Below, piece after piece: positions 166 through 32,214 of a DNA stretch of 32,214 bases. Every line of letters starts with the position of its first letter. The stretch's first letter is position 1. The stretch is from a virus. The stretch covers positions 1 to 32,214 of IMG/VR virus record IMGVR_UViG_3300046804_001569. The stretch is one strand, 5' to 3'. The notes below the pieces were generated by a model, which ran no database searches, had not been told where the DNA came from, and worked only from the letters and a program-made list of their open reading frames with translations. Made by a program: the position numbers and the translations under genes.

Positions 166-189
166 ATCTCTATTTGATTGCTATTATAC
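1..189. repeat. Left copy of terminal redundancy (circular contig overlap)
   Basis: Bases 1-189 match 32026-32214 at 188 of 189 positions; the only difference is T128 here versus A32153 at the right end. The overlap lies inside the DAHP synthase/chorismate mutase gene and runs into the end of the CmoA-like gene, so joining the ends restores a continuous operon. This is what an assembler leaves when a circular or circularly permuted genome is written as a linear contig. The unique genome is then 32,025 bp. A genuine short direct terminal repeat cannot be excluded, but its position inside a coding operon argues against it. Confidence 0.95.
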
Positions 190-844
190 CAACAAAATTA
201 AATGCCTGATAAAATGTAGATATGTGCCTATAGCCCAAAATCTGCAAATCAATATAATTTTCCTCTAGTGTTTTAGGTTTCATTATGAGCCTTAAATCTC
301 TCTCTTTTTTAAATATTTCCTCACTAGAAAAATTTTGAGCCTTGTAATCATAATGGGAAAATGTTAATACCTCCTGCAGTTTTCCATTATCCTGGTATAT
401 CTTTTCTGCCAAAATAAATACCCCTCCATTATGCAATCCATTGTATATATCCTTTAATAATTTAAATCTTTTGGATGGATTAATAAATTGCATGGTAAAT
501 ATAGAATAGATGATTTGAGCATTTAAAAATGATGGATTATCAGTTAAATCTATATTGCTAAATCTTAAATTATTGCTTTGTGATATTCCTGTATTTTTTG
601 GCAATAGATTACTATTATCATATCCTATTTTAGGGCATTTATATGGCAGTTCTTTTAATAATTTGCCGGTACTGCATCCTACATCATATATAGCCCCATC
701 ATCAGTTACAAAGTAATCACTAATGGATTTAATAGCCTGTATGAGAAAATCGTAATTAGGTACTGATTTATTAATATGATTATCAAAATCCTCTATAGTA
801 TTAAAATCAAATTTCTCCATTTTCTTTAGTTTTAAATGTATCAT
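170..844 (-). CDS. cmoA-like: CmoA-like carboxy-S-adenosylmethionine synthase
   Basis: A Rossmann-fold SAM enzyme whose closest recognisable relative is CmoA, which converts SAM and prephenate to carboxy-SAM (Cx-SAM) and phenylpyruvate. Numbering from ATG 844, residues 27-31 read SVPNY (CmoA SVPGY), residues 54-60 are the SAM motif D-V-G-C-S-T-G (CmoA DLGCSLG), and the middle has T-M-Q-F-I-N-P-S-K-R followed by L-x-x-I-Y-x-G-L-x-x-G-G (CmoA TLQFLEPSER and LLDKIYQGLNPGG). The C-terminus keeps Q-A-F-N-F (CmoA QCFNF). These matches span the whole protein, so this is more than a generic methyltransferase. Start candidates are 862, 844 and 820; 844 is chosen because GGGGAGG lies about nine bases upstream. 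It follows the small gene at 807-1052 with overlap and precedes the DAHP synthase gene by 4 bp. No CmoB partner is visible, so a tRNA role is not supported here. Confidence 0.88.
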   Translation of the reverse strand: MIHLKLKKMEKFDFNTIEDFDNHINKSVPNYDFLIQAIKSISDYFVTDDGAIYDVGCSTGKLLKELPYKCPKIGYDNSNLLPKNTGISQSNNLRFSNIDLTDNPSFLNAQIIYSIFTMQFINPSKRFKLLKDIYNGLHNGGVFILAEKIYQDNGKLQEVLTFSHYDYKAQNFSSEEIFKKERDLRLIMKPKTLEENYIDLQILGYRHISTFYQAFNFVGIIAIK

Positions 845-1052
845 TATAGTAATCCTCCCCATGATACCAATATAAATAATTACTTGTGCCTGCGCTTTTC
901 CTCATTTTATCTCCATGCGCATCTATTATCTGCTCCCTCTCCATTGCTTTGGCTTTTTCAAATATTACTATAGCATCCTCGGTTAAATAGTATATCTCAT
1001 TTATTTGTTCCATGAGCCATTGTATTGCAGTTATTTTTTTATCCTTACTCAT
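807..1052 (-). CDS. Small phage protein of unknown function
   Basis: An 81-residue acidic/helical protein; the start at 1052 overlaps the stop of the winged-helix gene upstream, which is typical of coupled translation (a longer form would start at 1079). It has the pattern I-T-A-I-Q-W-L near the N-terminus, then E-K-A-K-A-M-E-R-E-Q-I-I-D-A-H-G-D in the middle, and ends with an aromatic stretch Y-W-Y-H-G-E-D-Y-Y. I recall this arrangement from many uncharacterised Bacteroidota phage proteins but know no function for it. It sits between a predicted DNA-binding protein and the CmoA-like gene, so it may be cotranscribed with the modification cassette without being part of it. Confidence 0.75.
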   Translation of the reverse strand: MSKDKKITAIQWLMEQINEIYYLTEDAIVIFEKAKAMEREQIIDAHGDKMRKSAGTSNYLYWYHGEDYYNDTFKTKENGEI

Positions 1053-29421: not shown

Positions 29422-30507
29422 CTATTTTGGGGCTAAAATAGTATTATATACATGCTCTGCTATTGCTCTCATCATTAGGGGAGGTACTGCGCGCCCTAGT
29501 CGCTCTGTTTTTTTGGTATATTTCTCTCCTAGATAGTAATCATCAGGAAAAGACATAATACGTATCAATTCAGGTACTGTTAACTCTCTATTTTCTTCCC
29601 AATGGCATAGGCATGCTCCTTTATTACCCTGCCTTTGGCATATGGTTGGGCTAGGATAGTGCCTTTTAATGCGTATTAATCCAAATAAGGCTTTTTTAGA
29701 TTCACTATATTTTTTACCATTCTCTCCCTCTTTCATTTGCATGAGTATATTTTTTACTTTTCCTTCGCTATGAGTAGCATCTTTTATATCCTGGTCGCTA
29801 TTAATCACTCCATTTAGAGCCTCTAATACGCTAATTGCTTTGCTTTGAGGCTTTGGATAGGTTATTTGCCTATTTATATCATTTCGTACTCCTATGAATA
29901 TGGTACGCTCTCTAGATTGCGGTACTCCATAATCTTTAGCATTCAATACTTTATATCTCACATCATATCCACATTCTACTAATGCATCATATATATTTTT
30001 AGGCTTTTCAAATAGGCTAAATTGAGGATTGCCTAATAGATGCGATGCGGATCCTAATGTAATACCTTTTACATTTTCGCATATAAATACCTTTGGTTGT
30101 ATCTCATTTAGTATCCTAGCAAATTCAAAAAATAAATCATCTGTCCTCTGCGTAGTATCACTATATTTTTTCTCTTTACCCCAATCTTTTTCTCTATTGC
30201 CACTTAATGAAAAGGAGGAGCATGGAGGAGAGCCATCTAGTATATCTAACTCTCCCTTTGCCATTCCTATTTTATCCAATATCATCTGCCCATTTAACTG
30301 CCTTATATCCTGGTCGAAAATATATGTATCAGGATAATTACGCTTATATACATCCCTCGCGGCCGGTATAAATTCATTAATTGCTAATACTTTACCTCCT
30401 GCTAATCTATAGCCTGTGGATGAGCCTCCTCCTCCTGCAAATAATGATACTACATTAAATAGGTTTTTTTTGGATTGCTCTAAAACATCTGCCAAATGAT
30501 ATACCAT
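29422..30507 (-). CDS. C5-cytosine DNA methyltransferase with motif X Asn-to-Arg change; candidate DNA carboxymethyltransferase
   Basis: 361 residues with all main C5-MTase motifs in order: I, S-L-F-A-G-G-G-G at 21-28; II Glu45; IV, G-S-P-P-C with catalytic Cys96; VI, E-N-V at 144-146; VIII, Q-S-R-E-R at 197-201; a compact target region to about 305 that includes P-S-P-T-I; and motif X, L-G-R-A-V-P-P at 337-343. Family members almost always have G-N-A/S-V; here Asn is Arg339 (codon CGC, 29491-29493). In engineered M.MpeI the matching Asn-to-Lys change allows use of carboxy-SAM, so Arg could hold the carboxylate. The gene begins 2 bases after the asparagine-synthetase-like gene and shares its operon with a CmoA-like Cx-SAM synthase. 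If it uses Cx-SAM, the product is 5-carboxymethylcytosine; otherwise ordinary 5mC. Target sequence unknown. Confidence 0.95.
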   Translation of the reverse strand: MVYHLADVLEQSKKNLFNVVSLFAGGGGSSTGYRLAGGKVLAINEFIPAARDVYKRNYPDTYIFDQDIRQLNGQMILDKIGMAKGELDILDGSPPCSSFSLSGNREKDWGKEKKYSDTTQRTDDLFFEFARILNEIQPKVFICENVKGITLGSASHLLGNPQFSLFEKPKNIYDALVECGYDVRYKVLNAKDYGVPQSRERTIFIGVRNDINRQITYPKPQSKAISVLEALNGVINSDQDIKDATHSEGKVKNILMQMKEGENGKKYSESKKALFGLIRIKRHYPSPTICQRQGNKGACLCHWEENRELTVPELIRIMSFPDDYYLGEKYTKKTERLGRAVPPLMMRAIAEHVYNTILAPK

Positions 30508-30509
30508 AA

Positions 30510-31241
30510 TTATACCTTTAATTGTTTAAAATTAGAGTTACCACATTGCATATTACTAGGTCGCCTAGCCTTAAATCTTTTAAAGAAATCAGGATATAAA
30601 TTTATCAAAATTCTTTTCCTACCAGGCTGATTTACCTCCTCAAATGTTTTATCCCAAAAATAATTATACACATCATCATGCATAAATGGGGCTATTAATG
30701 TTTTACCTTTTGATTCTGCATATGCTTTGGCAGATTCATATTGTTTTTTATATGTACCATATACTTTTATTCTATATTCCTGCATAGATTTCAATGTAGG
30801 TACTTTGGTTTTCTCCTCACGTTTTGATTTAATCATAAAATCTCTACCTAATCCAAAATATGCATCACTACCTAATCCTGTATAAATCACATCCTGATCT
30901 ATATTATCTATCAAAATGCAGAATAAACTCATAGTTAATAAACTCGCTTTTAATCTAGGATTAATGCCATGCTCTATTAAAAATTGCTTATACTCATCTA
31001 AATTAGTTTTACTATCTATTTTTACTACAGTATAATCAAAATCATAATGCTCTACTATATCTATAAATGAGAGATAATCATCGCTATCAATATCATCCAT
31101 TTTAATGGCATATGGCTCTATCTCTAGATTTTCATCCATTAATAGATTTAATATTACGCATGAATCAATTCCTCCACTCAATAATACTGCTACATTTTCA
31201 TCATCTTTTTTTACTGATTTTTTTAATAATTCTTTTAACAT
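30510..31241 (-). CDS. Asparagine-synthetase-like ATP pyrophosphatase, candidate DNA-base amidotransferase
   Basis: 243 residues from ATG 31241, 4 bp after the DAHP synthase stop (the frame reaches 31289). It matches only the C-terminal, AMP-forming half of AsnB: P-loop L-S-G-G-I-D-S at 21-27, the T-G-L-G-S-D-A-Y-F-G segment at 121-130 (AsnB GEGSDExFGG), and A-P-F-M near 184 (AsnB PFLD). The N-terminal glutaminase domain is absent, so nitrogen would come from free ammonia or an amine. Such enzymes adenylate a carboxylate and convert it to an amide. Between a Cx-SAM-producing gene set and a predicted carboxymethyltransferase, the likely substrate is the carboxyl of 5-carboxymethylcytosine, giving an amide such as 5-carbamoylmethylcytosine. 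Family clear; substrate inferred. Confidence 0.85.
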   Translation of the reverse strand: MLKELLKKSVKKDDENVAVLLSGGIDSCVILNLLMDENLEIEPYAIKMDDIDSDDYLSFIDIVEHYDFDYTVVKIDSKTNLDEYKQFLIEHGINPRLKASLLTMSLFCILIDNIDQDVIYTGLGSDAYFGLGRDFMIKSKREEKTKVPTLKSMQEYRIKVYGTYKKQYESAKAYAESKGKTLIAPFMHDDVYNYFWDKTFEEVNQPGRKRILINLYPDFFKRFKARRPSNMQCGNSNFKQLKV

Positions 31242-31245
31242 AATT

Positions 31246-32190
31246 CTATATTTTTTGATTTTTACATGATAGGCTATGTATCTCCTCATACACTAGGTTA
31301 TAATCTCCCCATTTATCTATTAATTGGGATTTTCTTTTTAGATCAGTAATGGGCATATTATTCTCTTTTTTTATTACCCCTATCTCCTTACTCACTTGCA
31401 TCCTGGCATTTAATAAATGGATTATTTGATTATCAATATTATCTAATTCATAACGTAAATACTCTATAGGAGCAATGGGATGTAAATAATTATCTATATC
31501 CTCTATATCTATTTGCTGATCTACATCAGTTAATGCATGAGCAGGAGATGGATGCGCCTCTATTATATAATTTTTATAGCCTAGATGCATGGAATAATCT
31601 ATAATTTGCTTTATTAAATCCTTTTGCCCTGCAATATGCGACGGATCTATAAATATATCATCCATAGATAATCCCATATTTTTTCTAAACTTTTCTAATT
31701 CATCCCATTTAGGCTCATTTCTATAAAGTGATTTGGGATTTATAAATCCTCTAAATATTGGATTTACTTTGATGCCTCTATTTAAAAATCTACTTATTGC
31801 GCCCATCCATAATTTACTATCATTGGCTATAGGGTTTTTTATTCCTATAAAATCAAATTCTCCAGGAGTAATAGCCTCTGATAATTGAGCCATTGTAAAC
31901 GGATCTCCACTACTCCTAGCCCCTATCCATATATTTGCCTTTATATTTCGTACCTGGTCTAATTGTTTTAGATTGCTTACCTCTGTATAAAATGTAAAAT
32001 CATACATTTTCTGCAGTTGCTCTACTATATTAATGGCATCCATCCCCATTCCACTAAATGCATCTGCATCTGTTCTCGGTTTCCATATGCCTCCTCTAAT
32101 ATGTGTATATCCTTTATTAAGGAGTTTTATTATTGCCCATTCAAATTGGATAATATTCTCAATGGCGCACGGTCCTGCTATTATTCTCAT
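31246..32190 (-). CDS. Bifunctional DAHP synthase / chorismate mutase
   Basis: 314 residues. DAHP synthase (type I-beta, about 1-235) joins phosphoenolpyruvate and erythrose-4-phosphate: A-G-P-C with Cys8, W-K-P-R-T at 36-40, I-G-A-R-S-S-G-D-P-F at 89-98, I-K-N-P at 117-120, D-P-S-H at 182-185, and E-A-H-P-S-P-A-H-A-L from 211. An AroQ chorismate mutase domain follows (about 243-314): L-R-Y-E-L-D-N-I-D, then R263, K274-K275 and D283/R286, ending I-H-S-L-S-C-K-N-Q. Such fusions are typical of Bacteroidota. This copy lacks the usual 20-25 residue N-terminal extension and has a shortened loop in the mutase. It lies 4 bp after the CmoA-like gene when the circle is closed. Likely purpose is to raise prephenate for Cx-SAM synthesis, with host enzymes doing the middle shikimate steps. 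Confidence 0.95.
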   Translation of the reverse strand: MRIIAGPCAIENIIQFEWAIIKLLNKGYTHIRGGIWKPRTDADAFSGMGMDAINIVEQLQKMYDFTFYTEVSNLKQLDQVRNIKANIWIGARSSGDPFTMAQLSEAITPGEFDFIGIKNPIANDSKLWMGAISRFLNRGIKVNPIFRGFINPKSLYRNEPKWDELEKFRKNMGLSMDDIFIDPSHIAGQKDLIKQIIDYSMHLGYKNYIIEAHPSPAHALTDVDQQIDIEDIDNYLHPIAPIEYLRYELDNIDNQIIHLLNARMQVSKEIGVIKKENNMPITDLKRKSQLIDKWGDYNLVYEEIHSLSCKNQKI

Positions 32191-32214
32191 ATCTCTATTT
32201 GATTGCTATTATAC
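32026..32214. repeat. Right copy of terminal redundancy
   Basis: Matches bases 1-189 with a single mismatch (A32153 versus T128). It covers the first 55 codons of the DAHP synthase/chorismate mutase gene and continues into the last bases of the CmoA-like gene, whose body lies at the left end. It marks the overlap used to close the circle. Confidence 0.95.

Follow-up and report, generated by a model that had tools for sequence, protein, structure and literature searches.

A phage operon joining a probable CmoX-type cytosine carboxymethyltransferase to a CmoA homologue, a DAHP synthase–chorismate mutase fusion and a divergent AsnB-like ligase

The closest described system is that of Synechococcus phage S-B43, for which Yang et al. 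(Nat Commun, Dec 2025, PMC12783734) described the proteins CmoA, CmoX and CmoY. According to that paper, SpCmoX forms 5-carboxymethylcytosine (5cxmC) in DNA at a GC motif, and in the crystal structure with carboxy-SAM (Cx-SAM; 8YF3) its Arg350 contacts the carboxylate of the donor. Cx-SAM was the sole donor accepted by the wild type, and the R350N mutant was inactive with both SAM and Cx-SAM. CmoA of E. coli can serve SpCmoX, S-B43 is devoid of CmoB, and 5,615 candidates carrying SPPC together with the equivalent of Arg350 were counted (PMC12783734). The same paper cites the engineered M.MpeI N374K, in agreement with an earlier note on the present DNA, which stated that this substitution permits carboxymethyl transfer. 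The availability of prephenate was named as an open question, and its main text makes no mention of chorismate or DAHP.

The window analysed here is the whole stretch of viral DNA, 32,214 nucleotides in length. Its first and last 189 bp overlap, with one mismatch; the genome is circular and measures about 32025 bp, and contig L002 bridges the junction of the two ends with 99.98-100% identity. With the circle closed, four genes follow each other on the minus strand, in the order cmoA (862-170), DAHPS-CM (32190-31246), AsnB-like ligase (31289-30510) and cmoX (30507-29422), separated by small gaps or overlaps; DAHPS-CM starts about 4 bp after the stop of cmoA. The features are as follows.

170..862, minus strand: CmoA-type carboxy-SAM synthase, 230 aa (TIGR00740, 129.7 bits; 38% identity to S-B43 CmoA)
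31246..32190, minus strand: DAHP synthase (type I-beta) with C-terminal AroQ chorismate mutase, 314 aa (PF00793, 2.1e-20; PF01817, 2.4e-15)
30510..31289 (start may be 31244), minus strand: AsnB-like AMP-forming amide ligase, no glutaminase domain, divergent CmoY-like (PF00733, E 6.3e-13)
29422..30507, minus strand: very probable CmoX-type C5-cytosine carboxymethyltransferase, 361 aa (PF00145, E 1.8e-58; 8YF3; 42% identity to S-B43 CmoX)
29491..29493, minus strand: codon CGC of Arg339, equivalent to HhaI Asn304 and SpCmoX Arg350
32026..32214 against 1-189, no strand: terminal overlap, 189 bp, circle closure

The operon of methyltransferase and carboxy-SAM synthase claimed in the earlier note is therefore real, since the genome is circular and L002 crosses the junction, although cmoA and cmoX stand at opposite ends of the contig. 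The host is likely a member of the Bacteroidota, because the nearest relatives of the window capsid are those of Flavobacterium phages (38%) and a DAHPS fusion with C-terminal CM is also found on scaffold MT837090. The latter (L267, MT837090.1), labelled Bacteriophage sp., was rejected as a phage; its DAHPS-CM, prephenate dehydrogenase, DXS, Trk, FtsK and TrxB-like genes identify a bacterial chromosome scaffold, which looks like a Bacteroidota chromosome. Scanning of genomic contigs for bacterial hosts or prophages yielded nothing useful. Over positions 1-32214 of the window, GGCC and GATC were strongly depleted (observed/expected 0.18 and 0.40, respectively) and GC dinucleotides were over-represented (1.61), which suggests a restriction pressure that modification relieves incompletely.

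The best PDB match of the window methyltransferase was 8YF3 (SpCmoX; E 1.6e-76), and its identity to S-B43 CmoX was 42%. Motif IV is of the SPPC type, with the catalytic Cys96 within GSPPC, and the ENV and QSRER motifs are unbroken; the earlier note had described Cys96 and the other motifs as unharmed, and they are. It had also claimed that the motif X Asn is replaced by Arg (R339, codon CGC at 29491-29493) and had asked for an alignment with M.HhaI. The translation reads T-E-R-L-G-R339-A-V-P-P-L, and the HMMER alignment placed the G-R-A-V of the window on G-N-S-V of M.HhaI (Asn304) and also on G-R350-M-V of SpCmoX (8YF3), confirming the replacement. This residue is not a matter of chance, since R339 was the same in all 11 aligned relatives and GR[AMS][VI] was present in 98/98 distinct sequences classed as SPPC-type. 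Having SPPC with its Cys, Arg at the HhaI Asn304 position and a genomic link to CmoA, the window enzyme very probably belongs, on sequence grounds, to the recently published DNA-cytosine carboxymethyltransferase type (CmoX). The AlphaFold model of window CmoX, built from six sequences, had a pLDDT of 55, below 50 in region 223-339, and was left unused. In contig L089 (1050-3274) a tandem pair of CmoX paralogues lies 3' of DAHPS-CM, with motif X sequences GRSV and GRAV.

The best explanation of the operon, which we hold with considerable confidence, is that CmoX carboxymethylates cytosine with Cx-SAM from CmoA, while DAHPS-CM feeds prephenate and the ligase amidates the product. The phage would push host carbon into prephenate through DAHPS-CM, which would catalyse the entry step of the shikimate pathway and convert chorismate to prephenate, the intervening steps being left to host enzymes. 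CmoA would then convert SAM and prephenate to Cx-SAM. Cys96 would attack C6 of cytosine and the carboxymethyl group would pass from Cx-SAM to C5 in the phage DNA, with Arg339, in place of the Asn normally near the methyl group, forming a salt bridge to the donor carboxylate. The AsnB-like ligase would adenylate the carboxylate and join it to an amine, giving 5-carboxymethylcytosine and an amide thereof, presumably against host restriction. Gene content, linkage, residue equivalence, conservation and co-occurrence were established here, and the chemistry of CmoA, CmoX and CmoY has been shown elsewhere for homologues; from these we infer the activity of the window copies, the prephenate supply, the amine and the purpose.

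The assignment of DAHPS-CM is supported by Pfam, NCBIfam and PDB sequence matches. In its predicted model (pLDDT 82) the first 242 residues match DAHP synthases, with Z 25.9 to 4GRS; VIA-align rows barely reach the CM domain (residues 243-314), whose fold is assigned from sequence matches (1YBZ, 3.5e-14; PF01817, 56.9 bits) and predicted helices. The features of a type I-beta DAHP synthase are present, namely the KPRT motif (K37-T40) and the metal ligands C8, H185, E211 and D222. These ligands are invariant in four fusions, as are R246, R263, K274, D283, R286, S308 and Q312 of the CM domain, which correspond to the AroQ active-site set of EcCM (Arg, Arg, Lys, Asp, Arg, Ser and Gln). Between L004 and L089, dN/dS was 0.31 for CM and 0.15 for DAHPS; purifying selection acts on both domains.

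The fusion lies between cmoA and the methyltransferase in the window (and L002), L003 and L004, and in L089 it comes after a cmoA of which the contig end leaves just the final residues. Contigs L005 and L103 carry a free-standing chorismate mutase between cmoA and cmoX, keeping the prephenate-making step alone; the CM of L005 is without equivalents of D283 and R286. No match to PF01817 above the cut-off was found in 50 GMSV control records. The gene is an optional accessory of the carboxymethylation system, because CM is absent in most CmoX phages and because, although all CM-bearing loci fall in one CmoX clade, L106 and L116 of the same clade are without it. DAHPS-CM would raise the level of prephenate, the co-substrate of CmoA; supply of aromatic amino acids is a possible alternative role. 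In fusions of the Bacteroidota type, CM may have a regulatory as well as a catalytic function.

It is rather unlikely that DAHPS-CM serves general auxiliary metabolism, for Phe/Tyr or chorismate-derived cofactors, and adjoins cmoA by chance. DAHPS genes do occur without CmoA in other phages (L090-L102, with neither CmoA nor CmoX in the flank), and T4-like phages have CM-domain proteins, but here several diverged contigs have the gene between cmoA and cmoX, two of them keeping CM alone, a position that a general role in aromatic metabolism would not explain. The DAHPS matches of the phage collection in Listeria, Staphylococcus and Enterococcus aligned over about 70% of the query, with 24-30% identity, and were mostly in short unannotated records. 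In viral contig L100 (1398-2358), chorismate mutase and DAHP synthase are encoded by separate genes that adjoin each other and lie next to a dCMP-deaminase-like gene; this record contains no CmoA. A phage DAHPS-CM between cmoA and cmoX makes the question of prephenate availability (PMC12783734) directly testable.

The co-occurrence of Arg with CmoA was assessed in scans with CmoX, rather than CmoA, as the anchor, counting CmoA within the fetched flank. CmoA was nearby in 73/83 distinct GR-type sequences and in 0/44 distinct related GMSV-type methyltransferases. The survey of G-R/K-A-V variants with CmoA homologues, suggested in the earlier note, which named frequent GRAV without a CmoA neighbour as a refutation, favours the link; the ten of 83 sequences with no CmoA in sight limit it. 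The contigs of these ten are mostly short or cut near the gene; L179 and L249/L250 extend about 8 kb on both sides of the GR-type gene, with no CmoA match in the records. By analogy with E. coli CmoA and SpCmoX, a host CmoA could serve GR-type enzymes of phages without cmoA.

In Staphylococcus phages F1 and SPbeta-like (L342, 5301-6308; L343, 5660-6658), CmoA adjoins a third type of C5-methyltransferase, with motif IV GSPCQSF and motif X V-G-G-V-I, which has Gly in place of Arg or Asn. Either this Gly makes room for Cx-SAM, the carboxylate being bound elsewhere, or the function differs. Many CmoA-linked methyltransferases thus bear Arg, but not all do. Further C5-methyltransferases related to CmoX read G-M-S-V or G-L-M-V in motif X, with Met or Leu where Asn is usual (viral contigs L025-L081; Flavobacterium phage FPSV-S2, L263; Melnitz-3, L262).

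A CmoA-anchored scan detected another C5-methyltransferase adjoining CmoA, with motif IV GFPCATFS. It resembles M.HhaI most closely (E 1e-48) and SpCmoX only remotely (E 7e-12), and its motif X is G-R-T-[IV], the Arg aligning on HhaI Asn304. A rescan from the methyltransferase side, done to remove the bias of CmoA anchoring, recovered 59 distinct sequences, with Arg in 59/59 and CmoA in 59/59. In the tree this type groups with Asn-type HhaI-like enzymes, and a single clade of all Arg-type enzymes was rejected (log-likelihood 143 lower, p-AU 1.8e-8); the change from Asn to Arg therefore arose at least twice, beside CmoA each time. The sequences of this second type are without SPPC and therefore fall outside the set counted in PMC12783734. 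They are found in viral contigs L112 (1859-2923), L118-L120 and L273-L340, each adjoining CmoA; in L275 a ParB-domain-like protein comes next. This lineage enlarges the candidate carboxymethyltransferases beyond the SPPC-bearing set and is independent evidence for Arg as an adaptation to Cx-SAM.

These data also bear on the reading of the window enzyme as an ordinary methyltransferase, making 5mC from SAM, with Arg339 as a tolerated change at a variable position. The position does vary in phage methyltransferases (Met, Leu and Gly occur in the GMSV group, Melnitz and the staphylococcal phages, respectively), but Arg is invariant in CmoX, tied to CmoA and of at least two origins beside CmoA, and SpCmoX takes Cx-SAM only (PMC12783734), so that we regard this reading as very improbable. 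The proposal of the earlier note that Arg is an adaptation to the donor carboxylate is supported by the structure and mutant of SpCmoX R350 (PMC12783734) and by the co-occurrence with CmoA; it is right, but not new, the idea having already been published. The DAHPS-CM in the operon, the second Arg lineage and the divergent ligase go beyond the main text of PMC12783734.

Window CmoA reached 129.7 bits on TIGR00740, under the equivalog cut-off of 193.3 bits; this does not exclude a phage CmoA, because the biochemically proven SpCmoA scored only 115.6 bits. It was 38% identical to SpCmoA over 90%, a full-length similarity, and matched the structures of YecO (E 1e-27) and E. coli CmoA (E 1e-25). 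At the position of E. coli CmoA Arg199, Glu is aligned in both window CmoA and SpCmoA. That this CmoA acts in tRNA modification (cmo5U), unrelated to the DNA enzyme, is scarcely credible, for although the E. coli enzyme works in a tRNA pathway and PHROG 4752 bears the name tRNA methyltransferase, the operon is tight, CmoA co-occurs with Arg-type methyltransferases and S-B43 is without CmoB (PMC12783734).

The window ligase showed 21% identity to SpCmoY. RKKTHFEC, common to SpCmoY and its nearer homologues, is replaced by NPRLKASLL, and the protein was classed as CmoY-like only, not as a CmoY glycine ligase. Its likely role, as predicted from sequence, is amide formation, and the amine may be other than glycine because the ligase is distant from CmoY and without RKKTHFEC. 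Homologues occur in 41 phage records, whose genera are also represented among the 73 CmoA-bearing records of the phage collection. Phages F1 (staphylococcal) and Y3 (Erwinia) have the homologue directly after CmoA, whereas the region shown of Salmonella phage Sen-NF contains no annotated CmoA. In phage Y3 (L341, 3657-6248), the genes of CmoA and the AsnB-like ligase precede one annotated as an oxygenase, and the region shown has no annotated cytosine methyltransferase; another acceptor may receive the carboxymethyl group.

The wider proposal stands at an even balance: that the window encodes a self-provisioned 5cxmC system whose non-glycine amine would give an undescribed DNA base, and that the same Asn-to-Arg change gave rise to cytosine carboxymethyltransferases at least twice, from different C5-methyltransferase branches.

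Compared with the known systems, the window shares with S-B43 a CmoX that has SPPC and Arg in motif X (42%), a CmoA (38%) and an AsnB-like ligase encoded by adjacent genes, and differs in its extra DAHPS-CM fusion and in belonging to a phage of another type. Its ligase is 21% identical to S-B43 CmoY and without RKKTHFEC, and the amine may differ. With bacterial bifunctional DAHPS/CM (PRK12595; scaffold MT837090) the window fusion has in common two domains with CM C-terminal, as on MT837090; there, prephenate dehydrogenase is the next gene, whereas the window fusion is phage-borne, placed in a DNA-modification operon and shorter (314 aa). M.MpeI N374K likewise recruits Cx-SAM through a basic residue in place of the motif X Asn, but this is an engineered Lys instead of a natural Arg, in another C5-methyltransferase branch and site. 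M.HhaI has the same fold and catalytic motifs as the window enzyme, but uses SAM and has Asn304 where the window has Arg339.
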